Shown one piece after another: positions 189 to 22,519 of a stretch of 27,937 nucleotides of DNA (its first letter is position 1; each line of letters starts with the position of its first letter). Under the pieces are notes generated by a model. It ran no database searches and was not told the DNA's origin. It worked only from the letters and a program-made list of their open reading frames with translations. This DNA is from a virus. Made by a program: the position numbers and the translations under genes. The stretch covers positions 1-27,937 of IMG/VR virus record IMGVR_UViG_3300007344_000176; one strand, written 5' to 3'.

Positions 189-196
189 TATTTATA
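189..196 (+). promoter_or_regulatory. Candidate phage promoter TATTTATA
   Basis: TATTTATA lies just after the terminator and about 60 bases before the start codon at 256. It is the same octamer found before other transcription-unit starts in the window, but here it continues TTG rather than the usual AyAAA. If used as a -10-type element, the transcript would start near 202 and contain the left arm of the inverted repeat (208-230) in its leader. Confidence 0.4.
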
Positions 197-207
197 TTGT
201 ATTTAAA

Positions 208-230
208 TTTATAGTTTTTAGGGGTTCCTT
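208..230. repeat. Left arm of a long inverted repeat flanking the gene at 256-642
   Basis: TTTATAG, two T, then TTTAGGGGTTCCTT. The reverse complement of 656-677 reads TTTATAG, one A, then TTTAGGGGTTCCTT, so 21 bases match with one 1-base length difference. The left arm ends 25 bases before the start codon at 256. Confidence 0.85.
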
Positions 231-255
231 ATCTTAAAAACAAAATTTAGAAAAT

Positions 256-642
256 ATGGAAACAATTTATTTTTTTGTTGGTGCAGTAACAGTAGCCGTA
301 GTATTCGCAATAGTGTGGTTGCTTCGTGTTGTATCATCGCAGATTAAACAAATCCAAGACCTTGAAAGAGGTTTAGAAAGTGTAGTATCAAATGATATTA
401 CTGAGAGTGATGTGAGGGCAATTGTCGATTCTCGAGTAGACAAATATGCCTCTAATGTAGAACGTGAATTCGAGAAAACAACCAATTATGTTGATAGTTT
501 AAATAACAATCAATATGATAATTTAAATGAAGTTCATCGTAGAATTGATGATGTTGTACGTGAGCTTAAAAATGAAATCAATATTAACCGAGTAACCAAC
601 ACTAGAAGGGTAACCAATAGTGACTTACAGAGTGAATATTAA
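256..642 (+). CDS. Small membrane-anchored coiled-coil protein, function unknown
   Basis: This 128-residue protein has an N-terminal hydrophobic helix (about residues 4-24), then a basic turn and a long charged, heptad-like region (about 26-112) predicted to be coiled coil, and a polar tail. There is no cleavable signal-peptide site, so a single-pass inner-membrane protein with its C-terminal rod in the cytoplasm is likely. The start at 256 is the first ATG after an A-rich leader without Shine-Dalgarno sequence, and it keeps the whole membrane helix. The gene is bracketed by an inverted repeat (208-230 and 656-677). I do not recognise a family. A role in superinfection exclusion or lysis timing is possible only by analogy with other phage membrane proteins. 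Confidence 0.8.
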   Translation: METIYFFVGAVTVAVVFAIVWLLRVVSSQIKQIQDLERGLESVVSNDITESDVRAIVDSRVDKYASNVEREFEKTTNYVDSLNNNQYDNLNEVHRRIDDVVRELKNEININRVTNTRRVTNSDLQSEY

Positions 643-655
643 TATGTATTAACCC

Positions 656-677
656 AAGGAACCCCTAAATCTATAAA
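656..677. repeat. Right arm of the long inverted repeat
   Basis: AAGGAACCCCTAAA, T, then CTATAAA: the reverse complement of the left arm at 208-230. It lies between the stop at 642 and the start codon at 681, only three bases before the latter, so pairing with the left arm in one RNA could mask that start. Confidence 0.85.
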
Positions 678-680
678 GTC

Positions 681-851
681 ATGGCTTCAAACGAAAAATT
701 ATATGAAGAATACGGTTTTAAAGCAGCTGAAAAGGGTGTTTTTATAGAATGGAGAGAAAAAACTTCATCTATTTTAGAACAAGACCCCAAAATGCCACGT
801 ATAGAAGCCGCAGAGAAAGCATATTTTGAATTAGTGGGGAGTAAAAAATAG
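681..851 (+). CDS. Small hypothetical protein (56 aa)
   Basis: A short open frame from ATG 681 to TAG 849-851 encodes 56 residues beginning MASNEKLYEEYGFKAAEK and ending FELVGSKK. It is charged and largely helical, with no membrane segment. It follows the right arm of the inverted repeat, fills what would otherwise be a gap of about 270 bases, and has the same A/T-rich codon choice as its neighbours. I do not recognise a family. The reading is supported by its context and lack of internal stops, but the short length limits certainty. Confidence 0.65.
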   Translation: MASNEKLYEEYGFKAAEKGVFIEWREKTSSILEQDPKMPRIEAAEKAYFELVGSKK

Positions 852-905
852 ACTTATGTATTTTATCTACACAAATACCAGCCAAGGGGAAATTCCCTTT
901 ACTTA

Positions 906-913
906 TATTTATA
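906..913 (+). promoter_or_regulatory. Candidate phage promoter TATTTATA abutting a start codon
   Basis: TATTTATA is followed directly by ATG at 914. If it works as a -10-type element, transcription would begin near 919-921, at or after the annotated start, so translation may begin at the in-frame ATG at 920 on a leaderless message. An 11-base palindrome (GGGAAATTCCC, 887-897) lies just upstream. Confidence 0.5.
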
Positions 914-1156
914 ATGGAAATGCCACAGGAAGAAATTATATCCTACCTTCAAATAGCTCATCAACTTTGGGTTGATGGGTGGTTGGATGAAAAAGAATTA
1001 GGTGATTATCTTGATGAAGTTAATCATGAGTTTTCTGTTATTGATCCTAAAACTAAATCATTAAGATTTGTATTCCAAGATGATTATTATCCCACCTATG
1101 TAAAAATAGATTCTACTGGTAAAGTAATCGTAAGTACTGAATTTGATGGGCTATGA
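914..1156 (+). CDS. Small hypothetical protein (80 aa)
   Basis: This is an acidic 80-residue protein. The N-terminal half is helical (QEEIISYLQIAHQLWVDGWL), and the C-terminal half looks like a small beta sheet with alternating hydrophobic residues (SLRFVFQD, YVKIDSTGKVIVS). There is no membrane segment or catalytic motif, and I do not recognise a family. The start is uncertain: ATG 914 abuts the promoter-like TATTTATA at 906-913, and the second ATG at 920 (third codon) would fit a leaderless transcript. Its stop overlaps the next start by ATGA at 1153-1156, so the two genes are probably translated together. Confidence 0.75.
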   Translation: MEMPQEEIISYLQIAHQLWVDGWLDEKELGDYLDEVNHEFSVIDPKTKSLRFVFQDDYYPTYVKIDSTGKVIVSTEFDGL

Positions 1157-1596
1157 TAGATCCTAATAAAATATTTGAATTATTTAATAGAGCAGATCAA
1201 GATCCTCCTCTTAATGAAAAGTCTGAAATTGCGGGCCAATTATTAGAGTTAAAGGATTCACCTGCTTTCAAATTAGGGATATTTAAAAAACTTATTCTTA
1301 ATCATACTACATTTAGCGATAGTTTAGTAAAGCTTATTAAACGCGCAGATAAAGAATTTGACACGGACGACGTGAAAATTGCGGGGGAATGCATTGTATA
1401 CACTAGATCATGGGAATATATAAAAGATTTTGACGTGAAGGACCTCGAAAGTTTTAATATTCTAAAAAATTATTCAAATCAAGAGTTGCTTACCACATTT
1501 AATCTAGCAACCCATTACTTCCAGGAACAGGAAGAATATGAAAAATGTGCACATCTTCATAATATTTCAAAAGTAATTAGATTTTATTGCACCTAA
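1153..1596 (+). CDS. Hypothetical helical protein (147 aa)
   Basis: The 147-residue product looks wholly alpha-helical and soluble, with several amphipathic helices. Near the C-terminus TTFNLATHYFQEQEEYEKC resembles one helix pair of a TPR-like repeat, but a single such unit is too little to assign a fold. No catalytic motif is visible. It begins inside the stop codon of the preceding gene (ATGA), so it is translationally coupled to the 80-residue protein. A noncoding stretch of 148 bases follows. Confidence 0.78.
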   Translation: MIDPNKIFELFNRADQDPPLNEKSEIAGQLLELKDSPAFKLGIFKKLILNHTTFSDSLVKLIKRADKEFDTDDVKIAGECIVYTRSWEYIKDFDVKDLESFNILKNYSNQELLTTFNLATHYFQEQEEYEKCAHLHNISKVIRFYCT

Positions 1597-1657
1597 GCTT
1601 GGAGTGGATCTTTTCTAATCGTACATTTAGAATACGGGGAAAGGGAAAAAAGAGATA

Positions 1658-1698
1658 TTAGGAAATAAGGGGTATAAGATACCGGGGGTTAGGAAATA
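1658..1698. repeat. Direct repeat and small dyad in the leader region before 1745
   Basis: TTAGGAAATA occurs at 1658-1667 and again at 1689-1698, with a perfect small dyad GGTAT-aag-ATACC (1671-1683) between them. This sits in the noncoding 1597-1744 interval, upstream of a TATAAATA element, so it could be a regulator binding site or an RNA structure. No function is established. Confidence 0.4.
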
Positions 1699-1723
1699 TT
1701 CCACCGTGATATGTATAAACGTA

Positions 1724-1731
1724 TATAAATA
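1724..1731 (+). promoter_or_regulatory. Candidate T4-type late promoter TATAAATA
   Basis: An exact TATAAATA, the known core recognised by T4 gp55-type late sigma factors, ends 13 bases before ATG 1745. The spacing is the same as for the TATTTATA elements elsewhere in the window. It would start transcription near 1737 and give a leader of about eight bases. Confidence 0.55.
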
Positions 1732-1744
1732 AATAATAAAAATT

Positions 1745-1951
1745 ATGAGATATAGAAACATCGTTTTAGACAAGACAGTAGTTCTTGAAGGAAAACTTAA
1801 GCAATTAGAGATGATTGTTCAACGCCAACAACCTGTTAGTGATTTTATGAAGGTTATTTCCGATGCAAAGGAGTTAATTGATGATATCCAAGGTTATGTT
1901 GATCGTGAAGAACGCACACCCGGAGAAATTAACACCGGAATTAATAGATAA
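1745..1951 (+). CDS. Small coiled-coil protein (68 aa), function unknown
   Basis: The 68-residue protein is helical and charged. A heptad pattern (residues about 8-56, LEGKLKQLEMIVQ then FMKVISDAKELIDDIQGYV) is split by a QQP turn, which suggests a short antiparallel helical hairpin. There is no membrane segment or enzyme motif. It opens a run of genes (1745-3741) that continues through the HD protein to the late sigma factor, behind a TATAAATA element. I do not recognise a family. Confidence 0.72.
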   Translation: MRYRNIVLDKTVVLEGKLKQLEMIVQRQQPVSDFMKVISDAKELIDDIQGYVDREERTPGEINTGINR

Positions 1952-1967
1952 TATTAAAAAATAAGTT

Positions 1968-2753
1968 ATGATTTTAGAAGCAAAAGATATCCAACAAAAT
2001 TGGGTACAATTCCTCGCTAACATTGATGCTCACATTACGGGAGAAAGAAAACAAGCATTACTTGAGTTTTATAAAAAGTATGAGGAGCGTGTAATTTTAA
2101 TGCCCGCGGCCCATAAAAAAGAATATCATAATGCTTTTCCGGGAGGATATGTTGAGCATGTAAATCGTGTAGTACGTTGTGCCCTTAAACAGTATGATCT
2201 TTGGGCTGAGGAAGGAGCAGATATGTCTACTTTTACTAAAGAAGAACTTGTATTTTCTGCTATTAACCATGATTTAGGTAAAATGGGAGATGAAACTCAA
2301 GAATCATATATCCCCCAGACTGATAAATGGAGACGTGAAAAATTAGGTGAAGATTATATGTTCAACACTCGGGTTCCATTTGCTTCAGTTCCCGATAGAG
2401 GTTTATTTATGCTTCAATCTCATGGTATTCAATATACCTTTAATGAAATGTTAGCAATTCAAACCCACGATGGTTTGTATGATGATGCTAATAAAAAATA
2501 CCTAATGGCTTACATGCCAGAACAAAAACCACGTACCTGTTTACCATTTATTCTCCACCAGGCAGATTTAATGGCGGCTCGTATTGAGTTTGAACGTGAA
2601 TGGTTACCTAAATTCCAGAATAGCTTGGATGCCCCAAAGGACAATTTTATATTGGGTGACAATGGTAAAAAACCATCCAACTCCGCAGTAAAGAACAAAG
2701 CACTTGGTTCTATTAAAAGTGAAGGTTTAAAAAATATGTTAGATAATTTATGA
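1968..2753 (+). CDS. HD-domain phosphohydrolase
   Basis: The 261-residue protein carries the HD-superfamily metal ligands in order: H64 (GGYVEHVNRV), the doublet H101-D102 (INHDLGKMG), a likely auxiliary H167-D168 (QTHDGLYDD) and D200 in HQADLMAARIE. The domain spans about residues 30-215; the last 45 residues are polar and probably flexible. HD proteins hydrolyse phosphoester bonds in nucleotides or cyclic nucleotides using bound metal ions. Which substrate this one uses cannot be read from the sequence; dNTPs, alarmones and cyclic signalling nucleotides are all possible. It is cytosolic and overlaps the next gene by ATGA, two genes before the sigma factor. Confidence 0.85.
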   Translation: MILEAKDIQQNWVQFLANIDAHITGERKQALLEFYKKYEERVILMPAAHKKEYHNAFPGGYVEHVNRVVRCALKQYDLWAEEGADMSTFTKEELVFSAINHDLGKMGDETQESYIPQTDKWRREKLGEDYMFNTRVPFASVPDRGLFMLQSHGIQYTFNEMLAIQTHDGLYDDANKKYLMAYMPEQKPRTCLPFILHQADLMAARIEFEREWLPKFQNSLDAPKDNFILGDNGKKPSNSAVKNKALGSIKSEGLKNMLDNL

Positions 2754-3031
2754 TAACTACAATTATTATCTCAGTACTTTCGGTTTTAGTCGTAATCTTA
2801 GGATTTACGACTTTTAACCTTTTAAGGAAAAATGAAAAACAAGAAGATATTCTAGTAGAATATATGAAATATCTTAGTATGTTTAGTACTGCTATTGATG
2901 AATCCGACAAACGTCTTAAAAAGATTGATGAAAATGGTTTGTTTAAATCTGATGATGAGATTGGATGGTTTTTTGACGAAATTAAAAAACTACAAACAAT
3001 TCTTAATGAATTTCGAATTAAACAAATTTAA
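2750..3031 (+). CDS. Single-pass membrane protein with coiled coil (93 aa)
   Basis: Residues 2-25 form a strongly hydrophobic helix followed by LLRKNEK, the positive-inside pattern of an N-out or signal-anchor protein. The rest is a soluble helical tail with the conserved-looking block KSDDEIGWFFDEIKKLQ (about residues 66-82). Similar small anchored proteins with an SDDEIG block occur next to late-sigma genes in marine T4-like phages, as far as I recall; their function is unknown. It starts within the stop of the HD gene (ATGA) and ends in a TAATG overlap with the sigma gene, so all three are likely translated from one message. Confidence 0.75.
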   Translation: MITTIIISVLSVLVVILGFTTFNLLRKNEKQEDILVEYMKYLSMFSTAIDESDKRLKKIDENGLFKSDDEIGWFFDEIKKLQTILNEFRIKQI

Positions 3032-3741
3032 TGGACTCTATAATTAGAAAAAGAAGACCAAAATCAAAAAATTATTTTACCCAAGAGACTGAAAACGCAA
3101 TCGTAAGGTATAATAATGAGGATGACCCTGCGGTCCGTTCTAAAATATATGAGCAGGATATTCATTATGCTTTCTTCAAATTAACGGAGAATATTATCCA
3201 TACATTTAAATTTTATTATACTGAGGTAGATGAGATTGAACATCTCCAACACGAGATAATAACTTTTCTCTTATCAAAAATCCACCTTTTTAACCCTGAA
3301 AATGGGGCTAAAGCTTATTCTTATTTTGGTACTATTGTTAAACGTTACTTAATTCTTTCAAACCAGAAAAATTATAAAAAACGAATAGACAAATCCCCAT
3401 ATGAGAGTCTATTAGAAGACGAAAACCACTCATATAATCTAAACCCAGACAAAGATAAAGATCCATTATCAGAATATATTGATCTTTTTGTAGATCATGT
3501 AACCGAAAATATTTTTACTCTTTTTCCAAAGGAACAAGATGCCCGGGTTGCTGATGCTATTCTAGAATTATTTCGTAAAAGAGAAAATTTAGAAATCTTC
3601 AATAAAAAAGCTCTTTACATTTACATCCGTGAGATGGTAGATGTTAAAACTCCTAAAATTACTAAAATCGCTGATAGACTTTACAGCGTATTCAAGGAAA
3701 ATTACATTTTTTATCTAGAGCATGGATATACAAACTTTTAG
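3031..3741 (+). CDS. gp55: Late-transcription sigma factor, gp55-like
   Basis: The 236-residue protein matches phage late sigma factors related to T4 gp55 (185 aa). Residues about 35-118 resemble sigma70 region 2: helices around KIYEQDIHYAFFKLTENII and IEHLQHEIITFL, then the FNPENGAKAYSYFGTIVKRYL block (residues 87-107), the part of sigma that contacts core polymerase and melts the -10 element. A clear region 4 is absent, as in gp55, which relies on a sliding-clamp-linked co-activator. It would redirect host RNA polymerase to late promoters, and the TATAAATA/TATTTATA elements in this window are its obvious candidate targets. It overlaps the upstream gene by TAATG, and the baseplate cluster starts just downstream. 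Confidence 0.8.
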   Translation: MDSIIRKRRPKSKNYFTQETENAIVRYNNEDDPAVRSKIYEQDIHYAFFKLTENIIHTFKFYYTEVDEIEHLQHEIITFLLSKIHLFNPENGAKAYSYFGTIVKRYLILSNQKNYKKRIDKSPYESLLEDENHSYNLNPDKDKDPLSEYIDLFVDHVTENIFTLFPKEQDARVADAILELFRKRENLEIFNKKALYIYIREMVDVKTPKITKIADRLYSVFKENYIFYLEHGYTNF

Positions 3742-3747
3742 TTTTAA

Positions 3748-3755
3748 TATTTATA
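3748..3755 (+). promoter_or_regulatory. Candidate late promoter TATTTATAATAAA before the baseplate cluster
   Basis: TATTTATA followed by ATAAA lies in the 35-base gap between the sigma gene and the first baseplate-cluster gene, 21 bases before ATG 3777. It is one of the full-length matches to the window's recurring motif. Confidence 0.55.
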
Positions 3756-3776
3756 ATAAACTAAAGTGTATGTATT

Positions 3777-4118
3777 ATGTCACAATTAGATAAAATAGTA
3801 TTTGGTAAGAAAAAATTTTCAAGTCTTCTTGAAGAGATTTATAACAACCAAAAGAAAAAAGAAAACCAAATTTCTGCCCTTATCTCAGAATTAAAACCCC
3901 TTATTTCAGATATAGGGGACGCAACCCTTATAGTACCCCTTATAAAAGAATATATGGATATTGGGGTTAAAAATGATGATTTACTTATTAAAATGGCCAC
4001 CTTAGTTCAACGTGCCCTACAAGCAGAAGCATCAGGGGATGATTCATTTGGTATTTCTGATGAGGAAAAAGAACAACTTCTTGCCGAAATTAATAAAATC
4101 CACGATAAGAAAAAATAA
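3777..4118 (+). CDS. Conserved helical protein of the baseplate cluster (113 aa)
   Basis: This charged, all-helical protein of 113 residues contains YNNQKKKENQISALISELK (about 22-40) and a distinctive block DATLIVPLIKEYMDIGVKND (about 48-67), ending in a Lys-rich tail. No membrane segment or enzyme motif is seen. I recall similar proteins next to baseplate genes in marine T4-like phages but no assigned function; a baseplate assembly factor or minor component is plausible. It is the first gene after a candidate late promoter and overlaps the spike gene by TAATG, which couples the two. Confidence 0.75.
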   Translation: MSQLDKIVFGKKKFSSLLEEIYNNQKKKENQISALISELKPLISDIGDATLIVPLIKEYMDIGVKNDDLLIKMATLVQRALQAEASGDDSFGISDEEKEQLLAEINKIHDKKK

Positions 4119-5338
4119 TGGACGTTAGGTATGGTCTTTCTGGTTTAGGTTCTTCAATTCTTTCCCCCGGTGATGTTGGGGGTGGGGGAACTAATTCTAG
4201 CCAAATCTCAGCTGTAAGAGTTGTTGATATTGTTTTAGACGATTCCCATGAGAAATTTGAAGAAGTAGGTGGTTGGAATGGTTTAGGTACTATTTTTTAT
4301 TTATCTACAACAGATCCTACATTTGAGGATTTAACAGAACAAAAAGCAAAACCAGCCTTATCGAATTCAAAGCAATTTCCTCTAATAAACGAAATTGTAT
4401 ATGTGTTTTCTCTCCCTACCCCAGAAAATCAAAATGGTGGTAATGCCCAAGATCAATATTATTTCCATACTGTAAATGTTTGGAATAGCCCCCACCACAA
4501 TGCTCTACCCAATGCTTTAACTTTAAGTGAAAATCAAAAAGCAGATTACCAACAAACCGAAGCAGGTGCTGTTAGAAGAGTAACAGATGGTAGTACAGAA
4601 ATTAATCTTGGAGAAACTTTCCAAGAAAAATCTAACATTAACCCTCTTTTACCTTTTGAAGGGGATGTAATTCATGAAGGTAGATGGGGGAATAGTATTA
4701 GATTTGGTTCTACTGTTAAAGGATTTACAAATTGGTCCGAAGCTGGGGAGAATGGTGATCCTATTATAATTATAAGAAATGGTGAAGACCCAAACAATGG
4801 GGAAAGTGGGTGGATTCCTGTAGTAGAAAATATTAATGATGATTTATCCTCTATTTGGATGTCTTCTACTCAACAACTTCCCCTTAATGCTTCAAGTATA
4901 AATTACAACTCATACAATTCACCCCCAGATACTCCAAATCAATATGAAGGTGAACAAATTATTCTAAATTCAGGACGTTTAGTATTTAATACTAAAACGG
5001 ACCATATAATGTTTTCATCAGCTACATCGGTATCACTGAATGCTGTAGATAGCGTAAATATAGACACTAAAGAACACGTAATAGGCGCAAGTTCTATATT
5101 ACTAGGTAGCAAAGATGCTACTGAATCTTTAATGTTAGGAGATAAAACAGTTGATCTTTTAGATAAAATTTTAACTGAAATGATTTCGGTAATGACTAAA
5201 TTATCTTCTTTAGTTTCTTTACCCCCGGGGGCTCCATTTGCTCCTTTGAATGCTCAAGCAATTGCATCTCAAACATTACTTAATTCATATAAAGCTCAAT
5301 TAAGAACTTTACTTTCTAAACAAAATAAAACAATCTAA
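4118..5338 (+). CDS. Baseplate central spike protein, gp5-like without lysozyme domain
   Basis: The 406-residue protein has three parts. Residues about 30-125 look like the OB-fold platform of gp5/VgrG-type spikes, with a glycine-rich leader. Residues about 175-235 contain the block EGDVIHEGRWGNSIRFGST, which I recognise from T4-like spike proteins. Residues about 275-345 (IILNSGRLVFNTKTDHIMFS and following) show the alternating short-strand pattern of a trimeric beta-helix needle. The C-terminus (345-405) is helical. It would form the membrane-piercing spike at the centre of the baseplate. T4 gp5 (575 aa) also carries a lysozyme domain; none is visible here and the protein is correspondingly shorter. 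Confidence 0.72.
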   Translation: MDVRYGLSGLGSSILSPGDVGGGGTNSSQISAVRVVDIVLDDSHEKFEEVGGWNGLGTIFYLSTTDPTFEDLTEQKAKPALSNSKQFPLINEIVYVFSLPTPENQNGGNAQDQYYFHTVNVWNSPHHNALPNALTLSENQKADYQQTEAGAVRRVTDGSTEINLGETFQEKSNINPLLPFEGDVIHEGRWGNSIRFGSTVKGFTNWSEAGENGDPIIIIRNGEDPNNGESGWIPVVENINDDLSSIWMSSTQQLPLNASSINYNSYNSPPDTPNQYEGEQIILNSGRLVFNTKTDHIMFSSATSVSLNAVDSVNIDTKEHVIGASSILLGSKDATESLMLGDKTVDLLDKILTEMISVMTKLSSLVSLPPGAPFAPLNAQAIASQTLLNSYKAQLRTLLSKQNKTI

Positions 5339-6729
5339 TGGCAGGGTTCGGAGGTATAGTAGGGTCTATGGTTAAAAATGCCACCAAAAGTGCAGTTAAA
5401 TTTGAATTGGCTATTGATCCTTTAATAGCACAATTGCAAAAATCTTGCCCTCCAAGAGCTGAAATAGATAAAATATTAGCTCAAAAGAATCAACTTGAAC
5501 AAGCATTAACCCAAATACAATCATCCTTAGATTCATTAACAGGAACTGGGAATAAGGTAAATAGAGTATTATCCACAGTAGATACTTCAATATCTGTCAT
5601 CAAAGCTTTACCTGTTCCTACCTCAGTTCCTCCAGGGGTTGGTATTCCCTTAAACATTATAACAACTTTATCTGATACTTTAGATACTCTTGGTATTATA
5701 GTTAAAGAAGGTAAGGGTGTAATTTCTCAAGTTGCACCTTCAACTCAAATTATTACTGATATAATTTCAAAGGTTCAATCTAAATTAGCCCAATTAGAGG
5801 GTTTAATAGTTGGGTGTTTAGAAGCTGAAACCGAAGGGATGAGTGATGACGAAAAAGAAGCATATTTTTCAAGTTTAGGTATAGATTTAACATCTAAGGA
5901 TGCTAGTAATAGTGGAGCTAATAGTTTAAATGGTAACGATACTATACAAAATGAGACTTTAGAAGATAGATTAAGCCCAAATTCACCCAACCCTGTAGTA
6001 TATAAAGGTTTTACTCTTACAATTGATAGTGATGCTGGGAATAAATTTTCATTTCCTAGTAGGAGGGCAGTTGGGGTAAATGAAGAGGGTGTAAAAATAA
6101 AAACTCCTTTTTCCTTTAGCTCTTCAACTCAAGTATTATTAGATACTGTAAAATGGGAAATTGATAAACTCGATAAACTAGAATTACAAAGACTTTCAGA
6201 AGAAGCAGCCCTTAAAGCTATTGAAGATGCACGAAGGGAAGAATTAGCTAAAATTCAGCAAAGAAAGCAAATAGCAACTGAAGAAGGTAAAACAGCATTT
6301 AAGGCTGGTAAAAAAATAACAGATAATCCTTTCTTAAGGGTTGATACTTATTTGAGAATTTTTTGGGAAAATGGGTGGAATGAAGCTAAAAGAGTATCTT
6401 CTTTAGTTAAAGAATCACCTAGATCTAATTCTAATCTATCATTTACAAAACCAACACCCTCATATTCACCATTTAATGGCCCGGGTTCAAATGGTGAAAT
6501 AAGAATAAAAAGTGGAAAATTCTATAGATATTTGGCACAATCCAAAAAATGGGTTAATCATACACCATCCCCAGCCCCCTTCCAAGTATTAGGAAATGCT
6601 AATGGTGAGCAAAAAACTCTTGAACGTTTTCAAAATGTTGGTGGTTTTAATACCCGAATTGTGGATACCTACCTATGGAATAGTACATTATATAAATGGG
6701 AACTAAAATCCACAAAAGTCTATAATTAA
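5338..6729 (+). CDS. Baseplate-cluster structural protein (463 aa), function unknown
   Basis: Residues 1-165 are helical and hydrophobic in patches, with coiled-coil stretches (about 41-70) and a proline-rich turn (91-105). Residues 222-280 form a conserved-looking beta block (YKGFTLTIDSD, SRRAVGVNEEGVKI, SSSTQVLLDTVKWEIDKLDK) that I recall from other large T4-like phages but cannot name. A coiled coil follows (about 275-315). The last 80 residues (KSGKFYRYLAQSKKWVNHTP) look like a small separate beta domain, perhaps a surface binder. The gene lies between spike and gp25 in a TAATG-coupled run, so it is probably a hub or wedge component of the virion. A tail-tube connector or tape-measure-like role cannot be excluded. 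Confidence 0.65.
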   Translation: MAGFGGIVGSMVKNATKSAVKFELAIDPLIAQLQKSCPPRAEIDKILAQKNQLEQALTQIQSSLDSLTGTGNKVNRVLSTVDTSISVIKALPVPTSVPPGVGIPLNIITTLSDTLDTLGIIVKEGKGVISQVAPSTQIITDIISKVQSKLAQLEGLIVGCLEAETEGMSDDEKEAYFSSLGIDLTSKDASNSGANSLNGNDTIQNETLEDRLSPNSPNPVVYKGFTLTIDSDAGNKFSFPSRRAVGVNEEGVKIKTPFSFSSSTQVLLDTVKWEIDKLDKLELQRLSEEAALKAIEDARREELAKIQQRKQIATEEGKTAFKAGKKITDNPFLRVDTYLRIFWENGWNEAKRVSSLVKESPRSNSNLSFTKPTPSYSPFNGPGSNGEIRIKSGKFYRYLAQSKKWVNHTPSPAPFQVLGNANGEQKTLERFQNVGGFNTRIVDTYLWNSTLYKWELKSTKVYN

Positions 6730-6733
6730 TTTA

Positions 6734-6741
6734 TATTTATA
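6734..6741 (+). promoter_or_regulatory. Candidate late promoter TATTTATAATAAA
   Basis: A full motif match in the 26-base gap before ATG 6756, ending 14 bases before the start codon. Confidence 0.55.
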
Positions 6742-6755
6742 ATAAAAACTCAATA

Positions 6756-7094
6756 ATGAAATCTACGGAATTAAAAAAGATGATTAAGGATGCTGTAAAA
6801 GAAGCAATCCAAGAAGAATTAAAAGATATTCTTTTAGAAGCCGTTCGTTCTCCTAAGTCAATGGTATCTGAAAATATTTCAATGCCAACTCCACAACTTT
6901 CATCCCAACCCCCTTCATTAAACGCAGCTGAGAAAAAAGCAGCTTACATGAATATTTTGGGAGAAACAGGAACCTTTACTGCAAAAGATGCAGCAACGTT
7001 TAACCCATCAGGACCAATTGATCCTGCTAATGGTACTTTACCTCCAGGGGAATTAGGGATGGATCAAATTATGGGTCTTTTAAATAGCAAATAA
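6756..7094 (+). CDS. Small baseplate-cluster protein (112 aa)
   Basis: The N-terminal 30 residues form a charged amphipathic helix (ELKKMIKDAVKEAIQEELK), the middle is Ser/Pro-rich and probably disordered, and the C-terminal half has the pattern EKKAAYMNILGETGTFTAKD followed by Gly/Pro loops. There is no enzyme motif. It is co-expressed with gp25 and gp6 behind a candidate late promoter and overlaps gp25 by TAATG, so a minor baseplate or chaperone role is likely. Near the end of the helix, LLE (26-28) followed by Ala fits the prohead-protease pattern seen in the right-hand block, but placement in the tail cluster argues against head packaging. Confidence 0.68.
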   Translation: MKSTELKKMIKDAVKEAIQEELKDILLEAVRSPKSMVSENISMPTPQLSSQPPSLNAAEKKAAYMNILGETGTFTAKDAATFNPSGPIDPANGTLPPGELGMDQIMGLLNSK

Positions 7095-7507
7095 TGGCCA
7101 GAAGAATAGCAAATAAATTCCCAGTTGATACTCAAACTGGAACCGCGGTAGGTGTAGGTCTTCCATTTTCTGGGGGTAATGATGCTGTTTTTAACATTAA
7201 TTATACTACTCAAGATCAAACTAAATCAAATTTAATTAACTTTTTTTTAACTAATAAAGGTGAAAGACCTTTTAGACCTAATTATGGGGCTAATTTAAGG
7301 GCAGATATATTCCAATCAGCTAACCAACAAAATTTCGACCAATTAAAAGAAAAAATTCAATTTGAAATTTCACAAAATTTTCCAAATGTTGTTGTTGATA
7401 ATGTAGTTATTGTAGGTAGTGAAGATTTAAATGCTATTAATGTAACTATAACTTATAGTATAAATCCTTTTGGGATAAGTGACGAAATCAATTTAACATT
7501 TAACTGA
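7094..7507 (+). CDS. gp25: Baseplate wedge protein, gp25-like
   Basis: The 137-residue protein belongs to the GPW/gp25 family: length close to T4 gp25 (132 aa) and the family core NFFLTNKGERPFRPNYGANL at residues 49-68, followed by an amphipathic helix (LKEKIQFEISQNFP) and a C-terminal strand pair (NAINVTITYSI). In T4-like phages gp25 caps the wedge and contacts the first sheath ring, and the conserved acidic-Arg core helps sheath polymerisation begin. It overlaps both the preceding gene (TAATG) and gp6 (TGATG), the usual arrangement of gp25 directly before gp6 in marine T4-like phages. Confidence 0.93.
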   Translation: MARRIANKFPVDTQTGTAVGVGLPFSGGNDAVFNINYTTQDQTKSNLINFFLTNKGERPFRPNYGANLRADIFQSANQQNFDQLKEKIQFEISQNFPNVVVDNVVIVGSEDLNAINVTITYSINPFGISDEINLTFN

Positions 7508-9363: not shown

Positions 9364-9369
9364 TAAAAA

Positions 9370-9377
9370 TATTTATA
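9370..9377 (+). promoter_or_regulatory. Candidate late promoter TATTTATAATAAA
   Basis: A full motif match in the 28-base gap after gp6, ending 14 bases before ATG 9392, the same spacing as at 6734. Confidence 0.55.
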
Positions 9378-9391
9378 ATAAATAAAATATA

Positions 9392-10576
9392 ATGGCAGTA
9401 TATAAATTATTCCCTGAAAAAGACGCAACTTTATATTCAATGTTCCCAACAATGAATACAGGTTTAGATTCCCAAATGGAATCTAGTGCTACTGCCTTTG
9501 CACCTAATGACCCCAACCCTCAAGTATCTCGTTTTTTAGTTCAATTTAACAATACACAAATTGGAAATTTATTAGATAATCTAATTGATGACAATTCAGG
9601 TACAGATTGGAAGGCTTATTTAAGATTATTTTCTTCTAAAGCTACAGGTTTAAGCACAGATACTACAATTGATATTCATTTAGCTGCTAAGTATTGGGAT
9701 ATGGGTACTGGTCTTTATTTAGACTCACCCTTAACTACAAACGGTACAAGTTGGATTTGGGCTGGATATTCAGGTTCTAATAGATGGATGCCTGCTGGTG
9801 ATCCATTTTCAAATGCTTATGGAACTTACACAGGTTCATATGCTACTTCATCAGTTGTTGCCGGTGGGGGTGTTTGGTATACTTCTACAGTTAATGGGTC
9901 TGATGCTTATGGTTGGGCTTTATCAGCATCAACAACATTTACATTTAGAAGCGATTTAGATGTAACCCAAGATGTAACAGAATTGGTTTATCAATTTGCA
10001 GGATCAGGTAGTACATCACCCGCAATTGCTAATAATGGATTTTTAGTTAAACTTACAGGAAGTCAAGAATTTGTTTCAAGTTTTGATGTTCAACCTGAAT
10101 TAAAGTTCTTTTCAGTTGATACCTCAACCATTTATCCACCACAATTAGAATTTAGATGGGATGATTTTTCTTGGTTACCCGATACCGGTTCAATGTCGGT
10201 TTTAACAGCATCAGCAGTTTATTGTTCAATCCAAGAAAACCCAGGCTCATTTAAACAAGATTCTATTAATAGATTTAGAGTTTATTCTCGCCCTAGATAT
10301 CCTGAAAGAGTATTTCAAACAGCTTCATTATACACTCAAAATTACTATTTACCAGAGGGTTCGACATATGCAATTCAAGATTTAGATACTAATTTATATG
10401 TTATAGATTTTGACCCAACATATACAAAGTTAAGTGCAGATTCATCTTCATGTTATTTTGATATTTACATGGATGGCTTAGAACCTGAAAGATATTATAA
10501 ATTATTAATCTCTAGTAGTATTGGTGGGAGTGATTATATATTTGACAACCGCTATTACTTTAAAGTAATTAACTAA
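9392..10576 (+). CDS. Beta-rich structural protein with DNRLRE-like N-terminal domain
   Basis: The first ~130 of 394 residues (FPEKDATLYSMFPTMNTGLD, RFLVQFN, KAYLRLFS, TTIDIHLAA) follow the layout of DNRLRE-type beta domains found in secreted and surface proteins. That likeness is by eye only. Residues about 130-220 are Ser/Gly/Tyr/Trp-rich with repeated YTGSYATSS-like segments. The C-terminal part (about 255-394) is another beta domain. There is no membrane segment or catalytic motif. It sits between gp6 and a 2052-residue structural protein, so it is probably an outer baseplate or fibre-attachment protein. It ends in a TAATG overlap with the next gene. Confidence 0.65.
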   Translation: MAVYKLFPEKDATLYSMFPTMNTGLDSQMESSATAFAPNDPNPQVSRFLVQFNNTQIGNLLDNLIDDNSGTDWKAYLRLFSSKATGLSTDTTIDIHLAAKYWDMGTGLYLDSPLTTNGTSWIWAGYSGSNRWMPAGDPFSNAYGTYTGSYATSSVVAGGGVWYTSTVNGSDAYGWALSASTTFTFRSDLDVTQDVTELVYQFAGSGSTSPAIANNGFLVKLTGSQEFVSSFDVQPELKFFSVDTSTIYPPQLEFRWDDFSWLPDTGSMSVLTASAVYCSIQENPGSFKQDSINRFRVYSRPRYPERVFQTASLYTQNYYLPEGSTYAIQDLDTNLYVIDFDPTYTKLSADSSSCYFDIYMDGLEPERYYKLLISSSIGGSDYIFDNRYYFKVIN

Positions 10577-17187: not shown

Positions 17188-17226
17188 TAGGTTAAAATAG
17201 CTTGGAAAACAAAATACAGATTAATA

Positions 17227-17234
17227 TATTTATA
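17227..17234 (+). promoter_or_regulatory. Candidate promoter TATTTATA (upstream copy of a tandem pair)
   Basis: First of two octamers 17 bases apart in the 79-base gap before ATG 17267; it continues AAAACGA. The gap has no terminator-like hairpin. Confidence 0.45.
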
Positions 17235-17243
17235 AAACGACAA

Positions 17244-17251
17244 TATTTATA
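17244..17251 (+). promoter_or_regulatory. Candidate late promoter TATTTATAACAAA (proximal copy)
   Basis: Second of the tandem pair, ending 15 bases before ATG 17267, the same spacing as at 6734 and 9370. It would drive the 17267-20314 fibre block separately from the giant gene. Confidence 0.55.
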
Positions 17252-17266
17252 ACAAAAACATAACCC

Positions 17267-17929
17267 ATGGGATATTTAAATAATTCGGTAGTAACAGTTG
17301 ACGCTATCTTAACAACCAAAGGTAGAGAGTTACTCGCAAAGGGTGATGGTTCTTTTGCCATTACTCAGTTTGCTTTAGGGGATGATGAAATTGATTATAC
17401 GCTCTATAATCCAACTCACCCTTCAGGTTCAGCTTATTATGGTCAGGCAATTGAAAACATGCCTTTAATTGAAGCTATTCCTAATGAAATGCAAACAATG
17501 AAGTATAAACTTGTAACGCTTCCAAGAGGAACAGCTAAAATGCCTGTACTGGATCTTGGATATACAGCTATTACATTAAGACAAGGTGCTTCACTTGCAA
17601 TTACTCCTCAAACATTAAATTACTTAGGTGATAATCAATCATTTGAGTCCTCGGGTTACACAGCAACAATTGGAGATATTAGAACAATGGCTTCATTTAC
17701 AGCTACAGGAATTGAAACACCTACAGCTGCTGCTGCTAATTCAACAGTAACACTTGGAACTAATGTTTCTAAAACAGTAATTGGTACTTCTATCACAATG
17801 AGAGCAACTACCATTAATACATTGTTTGGTGCCAATAGTGCGCTTTATACAACATTAACTGTAATTGGTAGAGATTCAGGTGCTAGATTAACTATCCCAG
17901 TAACAATTATTCAAACCGCAGGTCAATAA
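17267..17929 (+). CDS. Conserved tail structural protein (220 aa)
   Basis: The N-terminal ~75 residues are strikingly ordered: VTVDAILTTKGRELLAKGDG, SFAITQFALGDDEIDYTLYN and GSAYYGQAIENMPLIEA. I recall this block from phages of Bacteroidota, without an assigned function; it resembles the attachment part of tail-fibre proteins. The C-terminal half (about 125-220) is Thr/Ala/Ile-rich with a beta-sandwich rhythm (TVTLGTNVSKTVIGTSITMR, LTIPVTIIQTAG), like an Ig-type decoration domain. There is no signal peptide or enzyme motif. It opens a block of three fibre-like genes behind tandem candidate promoters, so it is probably an exposed tail or fibre component. Confidence 0.7.
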   Translation: MGYLNNSVVTVDAILTTKGRELLAKGDGSFAITQFALGDDEIDYTLYNPTHPSGSAYYGQAIENMPLIEAIPNEMQTMKYKLVTLPRGTAKMPVLDLGYTAITLRQGASLAITPQTLNYLGDNQSFESSGYTATIGDIRTMASFTATGIETPTAAAANSTVTLGTNVSKTVIGTSITMRATTINTLFGANSALYTTLTVIGRDSGARLTIPVTIIQTAGQ

Positions 17930-17940
17930 AACCATAAGAT

Positions 17941-18960
17941 ATGTCATCATTTAAACAATTACAGCCTTCTGATTTCGTAATTTCATCCGATTCGGTTTCA
18001 GGAACTTTATGGAGTACGGGAAATCCCACCCTAACAACATTTTTTACATCATCTACACAAGCTGCATCATCTGCTGGAGATTATTATCTTTCAGTATACC
18101 AAACAGCATCTTCAGAAGATTCAGCAGCAATTCAGTTTGATATTGCTTACGCGAATCAATTTGGAAGTGGTAGTCTTTTATTTGATGCCTCTGTGAATGG
18201 TCAATCACCAACAAGATCAGTTTATGGTCAATATAGAAACTTAGTATTAGAGGATGAAAATGCTCAGTTTGTATTTGGTAATGTAACTCAATCTGATTTT
18301 TATGTATTTAATTTTGAAAGAGCTCAATACAAACAATCCCTATTCTTAGGTTCATTTAACTTAACATTAAAAACAGGTAGTGCTTCACTTCACCTTACAG
18401 ATAACAGTCAAGAGACAACAATAGTACAATACAATGGTGCTGGTAGAGTTTACCAACTCATTTCAGGATCTAATGGTGTAGCAGATACTAAAAATCCAAA
18501 TGGTTATACTGCCAACTCAGGTTCATACGGTTTACTCTTACCGGATATTGGAGTAGCTATTTTAAATGCAGCCGCACTTGATTTGTCTGTAGCTAACGAT
18601 GGGGTTAATTTAGGAACTGCTAGAAATAGTAATACTAATGATAATAACAATTCTAAGTTATTTAAAGTACTTAATAGTGGAGTCTCATTTGGTCTAAATT
18701 CAGAAGAAACAATATCATCTGATTTTATATTTGTTAGAGCACAAAACCAAGAATTTAACTATTCAGAAAATCCATCATTCATTTCAGGATCAACTGGTGA
18801 GGTATTGTATAACTCGTTTATCAATAACCCACAAACTTATATCACGACTGTTGGTTTATATAACAACACAAATGATTTAGTTGCTGTAGCCAAATTATCA
18901 CGACCTTTAGAAAAAGACTTCACAAAAGAAACTCTAGTAAGAGTAAAATTAGACTTTTAA
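17941..18960 (+). CDS. Tail fibre/adhesin-like protein, paralogue of the next gene (339 aa)
   Basis: The 339-residue, Ser/Asn/Gly-rich beta protein begins MSSFKQLQPSDFVI. Its C-terminal ~80 residues (FVRAQNQEFNYSENPSFISG, TYITTVGLYNNTNDLVAVAK, then LSRPLEKDF) align by eye with the end of the following gene (NEFNFSLNPSLTTGS, YITTVGLYDNLQNLVAIGK, LAQPI). The two therefore share an attachment or tip domain and differ in the middle, the usual pattern for host-range proteins. No catalytic or membrane motif is present. The start follows AACCATAAGAT; the same AACCATAA lies before the giant gene at 11029. It is separated from the next start by four bases. Confidence 0.72.
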   Translation: MSSFKQLQPSDFVISSDSVSGTLWSTGNPTLTTFFTSSTQAASSAGDYYLSVYQTASSEDSAAIQFDIAYANQFGSGSLLFDASVNGQSPTRSVYGQYRNLVLEDENAQFVFGNVTQSDFYVFNFERAQYKQSLFLGSFNLTLKTGSASLHLTDNSQETTIVQYNGAGRVYQLISGSNGVADTKNPNGYTANSGSYGLLLPDIGVAILNAAALDLSVANDGVNLGTARNSNTNDNNNSKLFKVLNSGVSFGLNSEETISSDFIFVRAQNQEFNYSENPSFISGSTGEVLYNSFINNPQTYITTVGLYNNTNDLVAVAKLSRPLEKDFTKETLVRVKLDF

Positions 18961-18964
18961 ATGA

Positions 18965-20314
18965 ATGAGTGCATTCAAACAATTTACAACCAAGGACATC
19001 AACATTGTCCCCTTTACTGTTAATAAGCAGTTTTCATTTAATGGCAGTCAATTTTATACTGATGCTAATGAAAATGATACTTATAAAGAGTTTGTAGGGA
19101 TTGAGAGATTTTTGGGTACTAATTTAAGTGGTTCTTTGTTTGAAATAGCTACGGATCCTATTACAGGCCATTCTCAGTCTTTGTATCAAAGGCAAGTATA
19201 TGATTCTGTAAAAGAATTATACTATTCAAATTATATTTCATCAAGTTGGGGTGACCCCGGAACTGCAATCCAAAGAGAAAGTATTTCGGGTTCATATAAC
19301 ACTCCAAGCTATTATAATTATCTTTCGAGCACATTAACAGCTTCAAGATATTTTCCAACTTCATCTTATGCTAATGTTGGGGTTATTTCTATTCCTTCAA
19401 AATTATTTGGAGAATACATCCAGCCAAAATCATTTGATTTTAAATACACTGATTCATCTAGTGCTGTTTTAGAAATTTATGATGATGGGGAAGGAAACCT
19501 TTATAGCTCGGGTTCATACACTTGGTATTCGTCATCTTTATTTACAGAAACTTTAATTGCTGAGTTTCAAACTTTTTCCGATGAACCTCTCCCTGGGAGT
19601 TATACCCGATTACTTTTTTCATCACCTCTTACTATTCCCTCAGGATATAATTTAGTTCAAGTAGACTACAGTCCTAGTGGTAATTCATCATTTTATATTG
19701 GGGCCTTAGGAGTTAACTCAGGTTACATAACCTCAAGTCTACAGGGTACTGATTTATCCTATTATGGTTTTACAGATATAGGTATAGATGCTGTAGACCT
19801 TGGCCAAGCCTTTTTCACATCAAGTTTATCTCCATCTCCTGGAGATACTATCACATTTACTTATACAAGTGCATCATTTGAGGGTAGTGGTTCAATTCAA
19901 ACACACACCCACGTAGGAAATATTGTTTATGAACATGGTATGGCGGTATTAACAAACCAACAACTACCATTATTTAATATTGTAGATAATATTAATGTAA
20001 CATCATCTTTCCTTTCATCTGTAACTATAATGGAAGCCCAATACAAGTGTACCATTAGAGAAAACGAATTTAATTTTAGTTTAAACCCATCCCTTACAAC
20101 AGGGAGTACAGAATATTCTAGTTCTATAGGAACTTTCCAATCCCCCGGAGAAATACTTTATGATTATGCTACAGGTTCTTATTTTTCCCCTTATATTACA
20201 ACTGTAGGTTTGTATGATAACTTACAAAATCTAGTAGCTATTGGTAAATTAGCACAACCCATCCAATCTTCTCCAACAACGGATACAACTATTCTGGTTA
20301 ATATAGACCTTTAA
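18965..20314 (+). CDS. Tail fibre/adhesin-like protein, paralogue of the previous gene (449 aa)
   Basis: The 449-residue beta-rich protein begins MSAFKQFTTKDINIVPFTVN, close in pattern to the start of the preceding protein, and shares its last ~90 residues (see the 17941 entry). The middle (about 50-330) is unrelated to its neighbour, Ser/Tyr/Thr-rich, and includes a segment that could be a jelly-roll (SSAVLEIYDDGEGNLYSSGS, then GSYTWYSSSLFTETLIAEF). An ATG at 18961 is out of frame and hits a stop within about 20 codons, so the start at 18965 is preferred. It closes the structural cluster, and only two bases separate it from the nuclease gene. Confidence 0.72.
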   Translation: MSAFKQFTTKDINIVPFTVNKQFSFNGSQFYTDANENDTYKEFVGIERFLGTNLSGSLFEIATDPITGHSQSLYQRQVYDSVKELYYSNYISSSWGDPGTAIQRESISGSYNTPSYYNYLSSTLTASRYFPTSSYANVGVISIPSKLFGEYIQPKSFDFKYTDSSSAVLEIYDDGEGNLYSSGSYTWYSSSLFTETLIAEFQTFSDEPLPGSYTRLLFSSPLTIPSGYNLVQVDYSPSGNSSFYIGALGVNSGYITSSLQGTDLSYYGFTDIGIDAVDLGQAFFTSSLSPSPGDTITFTYTSASFEGSGSIQTHTHVGNIVYEHGMAVLTNQQLPLFNIVDNINVTSSFLSSVTIMEAQYKCTIRENEFNFSLNPSLTTGSTEYSSSIGTFQSPGEILYDYATGSYFSPYITTVGLYDNLQNLVAIGKLAQPIQSSPTTDTTILVNIDL

Positions 20315-20316
20315 TT

Positions 20317-20766
20317 ATGAAATGGACATATAAAAACCAATTAATGGAGAGTATTTCTGACTTTCCTGATACTACCTATGGCTTTGTTTATATGATAACG
20401 CATATGCCAACTGGTAAATCTTATATTGGTAAAAAAATACTACAAAATACAACAAAAGTAAAATTAGGAAAAAAAGAATTAGCCCAATATTCAGGTGTTG
20501 TAGGACGTAGACCTGCTTACAAATTAGCAGTTAAAGAATCTAATTGGAAAACTTATTGGGGTTCTAATAAACATATGAAAGAATTATATGAAACAGAACC
20601 TAAAGAAAATTTTGAACGTACTATTTTAGTTTGTGCTCCCACTAAAAAGTTATTAACTTATTATGAGGTAAAATATCAAATGATCTACCAAGTTTTAGAA
20701 AAACCAGAAGAATTCTATAATGATAACATTCTTGGAAAGTTTTTTACACGTGACTTTGATGTGTAA
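20317..20766 (+). CDS. GIY-YIG family endonuclease
   Basis: The 149-residue protein carries the GIY-YIG signature: YGFVYMI (21-27, the GIY strand), SYIGKK (35-40, the YIG strand) and the catalytic Glu in YYEVKYQ (E117). The block WKTYWGSNKHMKELYE (77-92) is typical of the phage branch of this family. The family cuts one DNA strand using a metal held by the Glu. It is little more than the catalytic domain: no obvious DNA-binding tail like those of many homing endonucleases. It could be a free-standing homing enzyme or a resident enzyme in replication, repair or host-DNA breakdown. It lies exactly between the fibre genes and the primase. Confidence 0.82.
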   Translation: MKWTYKNQLMESISDFPDTTYGFVYMITHMPTGKSYIGKKILQNTTKVKLGKKELAQYSGVVGRRPAYKLAVKESNWKTYWGSNKHMKELYETEPKENFERTILVCAPTKKLLTYYEVKYQMIYQVLEKPEEFYNDNILGKFFTRDFDV

Positions 20767-20792
20767 ATTTTAGTTCATATATTAACGGTTAT

Positions 20793-21719
20793 ATGATAAA
20801 TGAATTACTTGTTAATTTAGTTAACTCTGTTTTAGGTCCTGGTAAAAGGACAGCTAGGGGCAACCAAGCCCATAACTGCCCATTTTGCCACCACCATAAA
20901 CCTAAATTAGAAATTAACTTTACTGAAAATAAAAAAGGGCATAACCCTTGGCACTGTTGGGCTTGTGATAAACGAGGCAAAACGGTGTACACTTTATTTA
21001 AACAAGTAGAAGCCACCCCCGAACAATTCTCAGAATTAAATCAATTAGTTAAAACTAATAATGTTGTTGAAGATGTTAAGATTGTTAATACTTTAGAATT
21101 GCCTAAAGAATTTAAATCTATAGTGGATAATAACGATATTATTGCACGTCACGCCAAAGCGTATTTGCATTCGCGAAACATTGGTATAGACGATATTATA
21201 AAGTATAATATGGGGTATTGCGACAGTGGTCGGTATGCTAAAATGGTTATTATTCCTTCATATGATGCTAACGGGAAATTAAATTATTTTACAGGTCGTT
21301 CATTTGAAAAAGACCCATATGTAAAGTATCGTAATCCTGAAGTATCTAGAGATATTATTCCATTTGAACTTTTCATCAATTTTGATTCACCTTTAGTATT
21401 ATGTGAAGGACCGTTTGATGCTATTGCTATTAAGAGAAATGCTATACCTTTATTAGGTAAAAACATTCAAGACAGTTTAATGAAAAAAATCGTCACATCT
21501 ACAGTTAAAAAAATTTATATCGCTTTAGATACTGACGCCATGAAGCAGGCACTTAAGTTTGCTGAATATTTTATGAATCAAGGTAAAGAGGTCTATTTGT
21601 TAGAGCTTGAAGGGAAAGACCCGAGTGATATGGGATTTGCTCATTTCACTAAACTAATCCAAAATACGTTTCCTCTTGATCAATATGGATTGATGGAGAA
21701 GAAACTACAATTACTATGA
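20793..21719 (+). CDS. gp61: DNA primase, gp61-like
   Basis: The 308-residue protein (T4 gp61 is 342 aa) has an N-terminal zinc-binding motif (C29, C32 in CPFCHHHK; C55, C58 in WHCWACDKRGK) and a Toprim core: E205 in LVLCEGPFDAIAIKR, the D246/D248 pair in IYIALDTDAMKQA, and a final acidic patch in GKDPSDMG (D276, D279). Primases of this type make short RNA primers for lagging-strand synthesis together with the gp41-like helicase. The zinc domain helps choose the priming site and the Toprim acids bind magnesium. The start at ATG 20793 leaves a short linker before the first Cys pair. Its stop overlaps the next nuclease gene by ATGA. Confidence 0.92.
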   Translation: MINELLVNLVNSVLGPGKRTARGNQAHNCPFCHHHKPKLEINFTENKKGHNPWHCWACDKRGKTVYTLFKQVEATPEQFSELNQLVKTNNVVEDVKIVNTLELPKEFKSIVDNNDIIARHAKAYLHSRNIGIDDIIKYNMGYCDSGRYAKMVIIPSYDANGKLNYFTGRSFEKDPYVKYRNPEVSRDIIPFELFINFDSPLVLCEGPFDAIAIKRNAIPLLGKNIQDSLMKKIVTSTVKKIYIALDTDAMKQALKFAEYFMNQGKEVYLLELEGKDPSDMGFAHFTKLIQNTFPLDQYGLMEKKLQLL

Positions 21720-22495
21720 GTAAAAGAAACATTAAGCAATCTTACAACCGAATCCTAGAGATTTCAGATGATGCTAAACAAATTACAATGCCAGATTCTC
21801 GCTATTATAGACGAAATAGCAAATATTATCCCTCGGTTACGTATGTTCTTTCATATTACCCAAAAGGTAAATATTTTGAAGACTGGCTTAAAAAGGTAGG
21901 ATATTCTTCTGAACATATTGTTCGTAAAGCAGGAGAAGAAGGTACCCAAGTACACGAAATGATTGAAGATTACCTAAATGGTAAAGAATTAAATTTCCTA
22001 AATTCTCTTGGAAACCCAGCATATAGCCCCGATGTATGGCAAATGTTCCTGCGTTTTGTTGATTTTTGGGAAACTCATAATCCTAAATTAATCGAAACCG
22101 AAGTACACTTATTTTCAGATAAACTTAAAGTAGCAGGTACTTGTGATATGGTTTGTGAAATTGATGGTGAACTTTGGATTATTGATTTTAAAACCTCTAA
22201 TAACCTCCAGACAACCTATGACTTACAGGCAGCTGTTTATGGTAAATGTTATGAAGAATGTTTTGGAAAAACCCCAGATCGTTATGGTATCTTATGGTTA
22301 AAATCTAAATCTAGAGGAGAAGATAAAAGTGGTAAGCGGTTAAAAGGTAAAAATTGGGAAATGTATGAATCAACTCGCAGCCAAGAAGAAAATATTGATA
22401 TTTTTCTTACGGTAAAAAAATTGTTTGATTTAGAAAACCCAAAACACTCACCAATCTTCACTGAATTTAGAACGCAAGTAAAAAGAAAATTGTAA
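21716..22495 (+). CDS. PD-(D/E)XK nuclease, Cas4/RecB-like exonuclease
   Basis: The 259-residue protein shows the RecB/Cas4-type nuclease motifs in order: GEEGTQVHEMIEDYL (H80), GTCDMVCEIDG (D144), LWIIDFKTSNN (D157, K159) and the helix YDLQAAVYGKCYEE (Q171). These residues bind metal and cut DNA. There is no cysteine cluster of the kind that binds an iron-sulphur centre in Cas4, so it is closer to the simpler phage exonuclease group. It is coupled to the primase (ATGA), which suggests a role in recombination-dependent replication, DNA-end processing or degradation of host DNA. Substrate and polarity are not readable from sequence. Confidence 0.85.
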   Translation: MSKRNIKQSYNRILEISDDAKQITMPDSRYYRRNSKYYPSVTYVLSYYPKGKYFEDWLKKVGYSSEHIVRKAGEEGTQVHEMIEDYLNGKELNFLNSLGNPAYSPDVWQMFLRFVDFWETHNPKLIETEVHLFSDKLKVAGTCDMVCEIDGELWIIDFKTSNNLQTTYDLQAAVYGKCYEECFGKTPDRYGILWLKSKSRGEDKSGKRLKGKNWEMYESTRSQEENIDIFLTVKKLFDLENPKHSPIFTEFRTQVKRKL

Positions 22496-22503
22496 TATTT
22501 ATT
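22496..22503 (+). promoter_or_regulatory. Candidate promoter, variant TATTTATTACAAA
   Basis: One mismatch to the recurring octamer (TATTTATT), ending 16 bases before ATG 22520. It begins directly after the nuclease stop codon and would start the right-hand gene block. Confidence 0.4.
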
Positions 22504-22519
22504 ACAAAACGTGCGTTAA

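Follow-up and report, generated by a model that had tools for sequence, protein, structure and literature searches.

TATTTATA, very probably a variant T4-type late promoter in a large group of T4-like Flavobacterium phages

The late promoter of bacteriophage T4 consists of the octamer TATAAATA at positions -13 to -6, a -10-like element used without a -35 element and together with the phage proteins gp55, gp33 and gp45. T4 gp55 inserts the bases A-12, A-9 and A-8 into pockets, of which the A-9 pocket is shallow (PMC7892883), and possesses conserved N-proximal aromatic residues at positions 10 and 23 (PMC2988020). Variant late promoters have been described for other T4-like phages, namely NATAAATA in S-PM2 and others and CTAAATA in the Aeromonas phage Aeh1 (PMC1524935, PMC2984593). 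In this report we analyse a stretch of viral DNA of 27,937 bases (IMG/VR record IMGVR_UViG_3300007344_000176, positions 1 to 27,937; referred to as the window), in which the octamer TATTTATA recurs in the gaps between genes and a candidate sigma factor is encoded at 3031-3741. A first-pass annotation of its letters had proposed that the recurring motif is this phage's late promoter, altered relative to that of T4, and that the sigma factor is gp55-like.

The octamer TATTTATA is identical to the T4 octamer at six of eight positions in the same orientation; only -10 and -9 differ, where AA is replaced by TT, while A-12 and A-8 are kept. As in T4, it is a -10-like octamer lying ahead of virion-gene operons in a phage that encodes a gp55-like protein with sigma region 2. 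In S-PM2 and Aeh1 the late octamer has likewise diverged from the consensus of T4 along with gp55, but there it is changed at -13/-12, whereas TATTTATA is changed in its centre. Since the element appears to work in a T4-like manner but corresponds neither to TATAAATA nor to its -13/-12 variants, the qualifier "variant" is retained. In summary, TATTTATA is very probably a late promoter, a variant of the T4 type, in a large group of T4-like Flavobacterium phages; a literature search of incomplete coverage revealed no mention of this octamer as a phage late promoter.

Enrichment and conservation of TATTTATA

The gene order of the window is collinear with that of the Flavobacterium phage vB_FspM_immuto (NC_055915, 160 kb; termed immuto), both containing, in common order, genes for an HD-domain hydrolase, the sigma candidate, two baseplate wedge proteins, tail proteins, a DNA primase and an exonuclease. 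The virion genes of immuto specify a head and contractile tail of the T4 type (terminase, gp20, prohead protease, gp23, sheath and tube), but its DNA polymerase is of family A and its helicase of the DnaB type. The window is a fragment of an immuto-related phage. Comparisons with long relatives are based on immuto and on a 150-kb contig from the window's own clade (G003), and those between clades on non-redundant sets of 67 (window clade) and 70 (immuto clade) loci.

Counted over the whole window, TATTTATA is of ordinary frequency (9 versus 7.45 expected), and such a count says little in DNA this rich in A+T. The distribution of the copies is, however, highly uneven, as seven of the eight forward copies reside in gaps, which constitute 2% of the window. 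Dinucleotide-based shuffling of the gaps (300 trials) yielded a mean of 0.28 copies against these seven, 3.0 against the 26 gap copies of immuto (out of 30 forward copies) and 1.9 against the 26 of G003, and not a single shuffle reached the observed number in any of the three sequences. The equal density in genes and gaps that the first-pass annotation had named as speaking against its reading was not found: TATTTATA is 29-fold denser in gaps than in genes in the window clade and 36-fold in the immuto clade, with gap counts over the loci of the two clades of 160 versus 9.0 and 161 versus 25.4 expected. The copies are sense-oriented, and the usual flanks are A-TATTTATA-A followed by A-rich DNA in the window's clade and C-TATTTATA in the immuto clade. 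The T4 form TATAAATA occurs in gaps at chance level only, be it in the window, in immuto or in G003. T4 as control displays the opposite preference, with four TATAAATA and no TATTTATA in codirectional gaps, to which this count was limited; S-RIM8, also used as control phage, contains too few sites.

The motif is concentrated at late genes. In the virion-gene block of G003, which spans the sigma gene through the tail genes, 20 of 79 genes carry it compared with 4 of 112 elsewhere (p 1e-5); the corresponding numbers for immuto are 16 of 78 and 8 of 141 (p 1e-3). Among 90 orthologous gene pairs of G003 and immuto, whose proteins are mostly 30-60% identical, the motif is present in both members of 10 pairs, in neither of 75 and in one of 5 (p 3e-9). 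The operon head gene at 3777 is preceded by the motif in 154 of 158 orthologues, that at 6756 in 50/50 (at a distance of 11-13 or 20-22 nt from the ATG) and its counterpart in the immuto clade in 62/62, and the site at 17244 is found in all three orthologues, including those of immuto and G003. The site at 9370 is not conserved, the motif being present at that junction in 3 of 77 orthologues. Coupled genes near the sigma gene lack it (0/152, 0/102 and 0/67 at 4118, 7094 and 10576, respectively). Heads of virion operons carrying the motif are those for the sheath (67/80), tube (71/74), hub (48/57) and tape measure (38/39), and these junctions are independent of the sigma locus because the loci were fetched via the tail sheath and major capsid proteins. 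It is absent ahead of the genes for the protease (0/65) and the major capsid protein (0/79) and of the core gene 56375 (0/71); pooled with the three coupled genes above, these six operon-internal genes give 0/536.

The rule extends beyond the two clades to a limited degree. In phage Mel-JY01, whose sigma factor is 39% identical, TATTTAT with A, T or G as the next base is found ahead of tail genes. In the more distant 484-kb phage LR756508 (sigma 41% identical), neither octamer is enriched, and the promoter rule therefore does not reach that far. As a side observation, Mel-JY01 (PP395634) was reported from the cyanobacterium Microcystis but belongs to the lineage of these Flavobacterium phages, with 43% identity in the baseplate and 39% in the sigma, so that its host assignment merits checking; its gaps are also enriched for the word CTTGCATA.

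A second class of intergenic motifs is separate from the late motif. In immuto, TATATTTAGGTATCAATAATTAAAAC and close variants are located in the region from 22 to 74 kb of the genome, ahead of small non-virion genes, and a TTG is positioned exactly 20 nt upstream in 16/16 cases (GTTG-N20-TATATTTAGGTATCAATAATTAAAAC); the equivalent in G003 is TTTGG-N16-TTCGTATATTTAC. Since these elements resemble the -33/-7 promoters of the host, they are probably early promoters read by host sigma-A; Bacteroidota sigma-A promoters (TTTG at -33, TAnnTTTG at -7) would be the expected host machinery. The late motif has neither the -33 element nor the terminal TTTG. A TTG at 17-21 nt upstream of TATTTATA is present at 0 of 26 sites in G003 and 4 of 26 in immuto, compared with 16/16 in the early class; the late motif is a -10-like box alone, with no -33/-35 element. 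Forward copies of TAnnTTTG are absent from the gaps of the window and immuto, in agreement with the earlier statement that the motif does not match this consensus. Start codons in the scanned loci often follow AAAGGTTATG or AAAGTTATG (98 and 51 gap copies versus 1-2 expected), and in G003 these words are found downstream of the early-type promoter.

The distance between the motif and the start codon, which ranges from 8 to 43 nt, is not evenly filled. For 582 sites at conserved junctions, the first T of the octamer lies 11-13 nt before the ATG in 141 cases, 14-16 nt in 2, at least 17 nt in 428 and at most 10 nt in 11; none of the 53 sites of the window, immuto and G003 falls at 14-17 nt. The start codons of the 11-13 nt class are backed by N-terminal homology, and the class recurs at several different junctions. 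According to the sigma tree, short and long spacing at one junction were interchanged only 2-3 times, and counts within one junction are consequently not independent. If the octamer occupies -12 to -5 like the flavobacterial TAnnTTTG box (PMC9723704), transcripts of the 11-13 nt class would begin on the A of the AUG or right beside it. The pattern suggests that late mRNAs of this class may be leaderless and that very short leaders are avoided. Leaderless mRNAs are rare in F. psychrophilum, accounting for 5.5% of mRNAs (PMC9723704).

The gp55-like sigma factor candidate

Relatives of the sigma gene number at least 595 in IMG/VR. The protein alone gave no significant sequence match in Pfam, PHROGs or PDB, and its placement was achieved only through comparison of profiles and folds. 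Alignment of the family profile with that of gp55 (hhalign) resulted in an E value of 5e-5 over 107 columns, extending from the N-terminus through region 2. Conversely, the sole match of the gp55 model phrog_234 in immuto as well as in G003 is the sigma gene (E about 0.01). The AlphaFold2 model (mean predicted local distance difference test score, pLDDT, 82) has as its closest structure T4 gp55 in the open complex (7d7c_F, VIA-align; Z 10.1, 128 residues, root mean square deviation 3.6), and most of its remaining structural matches are sigma factors as well. The previously suggested gp55-like nature of the protein is thus borne out by both profile and fold.

The conserved N-proximal aromatic residues of T4 align with Tyr15 (43/43 sequences) and Tyr27 (42 Tyr, one Phe of 43). 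In the A-12 pocket, T4 Tyr97 corresponds to Tyr98, which is invariant (43/43). The -9 and -8 pockets, in contrast, are altered relative to T4. In the hhalign alignment, the -9 residues Asn13 and His95 of T4 are replaced by Thr17 and Tyr/Phe96; this change of the pocket fits the changed -9 base and is considered suggestive.

Unlike gp55, the protein also contains an additional C-terminal helical domain, which is conserved and modelled with a pLDDT of 86. No fold match above Z 5.2 was obtained for it, and equivalence to sigma-4 or to gp33 is for this reason neither supported nor excluded. The lack of any known fused late sigma is raised as a question in a review of late transcription in T4 (PMC2988020), and the protein encoded at 3031-3741 may be regarded as a candidate for one. 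The gp45 clamp (PF09116) was detected in the T4 and S-RIM8 genomes, whereas the search did not find it in immuto, Mel-JY01 and three contigs of 150-167 kb; the bacterial clamp PF02768 was found in none of them.

Alternative readings and proposed mechanism

We infer the promoter role, the start site and the sigma factor as reader from the enrichment, placement, orientation and conservation of the motif, from the class of genes it precedes and from the fold of the protein. On this basis it appears highly likely that TATTTATA is a phage late promoter, probably read by the gp55-like sigma factor with the host core RNA polymerase, and that the adjacent sigma reads it is our best inference. The proposal of a late promoter in a form changed from that of T4 is accordingly upheld by the density in gaps, the bias towards the virion block, the conservation at operon heads and the missing -33 element.

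The most serious alternative is a promoter read by a primary or alternative sigma factor of the host, the octamer being a variant of the Bacteroidota -7 box. Length and position of the box are indeed similar to those of flavobacterial TAnnTTTG at -12 to -5 (PMC9723704), and TA and a T-rich centre are common to both. This reading is nevertheless unlikely, as the octamer lacks the TTTG end and the -33 TTG, the same phages possess a separate class with a TTG at fixed spacing ahead of other genes, and the motif goes with late genes and is retained by the lineages that possess the gp55-like sigma. Proximity to start codons might also indicate an A/U-rich, Kozak-like translation-start element of the mRNA and no promoter at all, particularly as Bacteroidota use A-rich leaders rather than Shine-Dalgarno sites (PMC6847099). 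The known determinants are, however, fixed at -3 and -6, which is hardly compatible with the variable distance to the ATG, and the motif is missing at the coupled genes tested in bulk and at the major capsid gene, which must be strongly translated; such an element is very improbable. That the octamer is a mere by-product of A+T-rich intergenic DNA, as its whole-window count at expectation could imply, is hardly credible at all, because counts as high as those found never arose in the gap shuffles, there is no enrichment of the mirror form TATAAATA, and the motif is conserved at orthologous junctions.

Several points weigh against a late promoter read by this sigma factor. The octamer is made of A+T alone, hence single copies can be due to chance; the loci are interrelated and counts at one junction are not independent; and eight immuto genes outside the late block also carry it. 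In 79/79 relatives, the 60 nt ahead of the major capsid gene are free of TATTTATA, so that expression of this gene would need an operon promoter further up. With regard to the protein, the hhalign probability for the relation to gp55 is only 67%, the match to Pfam Sigma70_r2 is below the cut-off, the structural Z of about 10 is lower than the 13 advised by the tool for helical proteins, and the -8 pocket residue Thr99 of T4 is replaced by Gly/Gln/Ser100 although A-8 is kept. As a separate observation, the ATG of the major capsid gene (in the relatives and at 57570 in G003) is directly preceded by a long A/C-rich leader almost poor in G and T, AAAACAAAAACAAAA, which is perhaps an unstructured translation enhancer.

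For the late promoter we propose the following scenario. TATTTATA would serve as a -10-like element covering roughly positions -12 to -5, or else -13 to -6, relative to the transcription start, placed at the head of most virion-gene operons without an upstream -33/-35 element, and would be read by the host core RNA polymerase carrying the phage gp55-like sigma. Early genes would be served by host-type promoters with a -33 TTG. At operon heads with the ATG 11-13 nt past the first T, transcription would start on the AUG and produce a leaderless mRNA. A more far-reaching version, which we consider possible but rather doubtful, is a single-chain late sigma in which the gp55-like region 2 is fused to a C-terminal domain of its own replacing gp33, acting clamp-free on a re-specified octamer and giving rise to some leaderless mRNAs.

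Sites in the window and wider meaning

The positions listed in the first-pass annotation are all correct (Table 1), including the single copy found inside a gene; the G003 homologue of this gene also holds an intragenic TATTTATA. As described, 14-21 nt separate an ATG from the end of the octamer at 3748, 6734, 9370, 17244 and 22496. The proposed 13-base motif TATTTATAAyAAA is exact at 3748, 6734, 9370 and 17244 and only there; an A-rich preference downstream of the octamer is visible in the sequence logo, but a fixed AAyAAA extension is not. The T4-form octamer at 1724 is probably a different element because this form is not enriched in the gaps of the window or of its two long relatives. Its reverse-complement relation to TATTTATA, remarked on in the first-pass annotation, is beside the point: use of the T4 octamer in reverse complement was rejected since TATAAATA does not exceed chance and the motif consistently lies on the sense strand, and the idea is unnecessary because the two octamers differ only at -10/-9 in the same orientation.

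Table 1. Motif sites and associated features in the window
Feature	Positions	Strand	Remarks
Intrinsic-terminator-like hairpin with T tail	159-183	+	directly 5' of motif at 189
TATTTATA	189-196	+	about 60 nt 5' of gene 256-642; just past terminator-like hairpin
TATTTATA	906-913	+	abuts ATG of gene 914-1156; 5 nt past short hairpin 884-900
TATAAATA (T4-form octamer)	1724-1731	+	gap before gene 1745-1951; probably no member
Candidate gp55-like late sigma factor, 236 amino acids	3031-3741	+	sigma-region-2 domain and extra C-terminal helical domain
Extra C-terminal domain of sigma candidate, about 95-96 amino acids, helical	3451-3741	+	
Putative late-promoter motif TATTTATAATAAA	3748-3760	+	29 nt before ATG of gene 3777-4118
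Putative late-promoter motif TATTTATAATAAA	6734-6746	+	22 nt before ATG of gene 6756-7094
Putative late-promoter motif TATTTATAATAAA	9370-9382	+	22 nt before ATG of gene 9392-10576
TATTTATA, upstream member of tandem pair	17227-17234	+	
Putative late-promoter motif TATTTATAACAAA	17244-17256	+	before gene 17267-17929
One-mismatch motif TATTTATTACAAA (octamer TATTTATT)	22496-22508	+	before gene 22520-23320
TATTTATA within gene 26374-26985	26918-26925	+	no member; codes Tyr-Leu-Tyr

Some late sites are located directly after terminator-like hairpins, examples in the window being those following 159-183 and 884-900. A tRNA-Ser(TGA) gene is present at 38-123, just upstream of the first terminator and motif. 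The region 23317-25812 encodes a protein of 831 amino acids, which matches a 5'-3' deoxyribonucleotidase (phrog_2643) at its C-terminus and, weakly, a cytidylyltransferase at its N-terminus; at this place immuto contains NadR-like and nucleotidase genes separately.

The analysis provides a late-promoter rule, open to testing, for a large group of T4-like phages that are mostly uncultured but include immuto, which is grown on Flavobacterium sp. LMO8; with this rule, operons can be mapped on hundreds of contigs. From the spacing rule, leaderless late mRNAs are predicted. Absence of the clamp, if true, would mean that late transcription is possible without the clamp coupling that defines T4, and the changed octamer centre together with the changed pocket residues may represent a natural experiment on how DNA is read by a gp55-type sigma.

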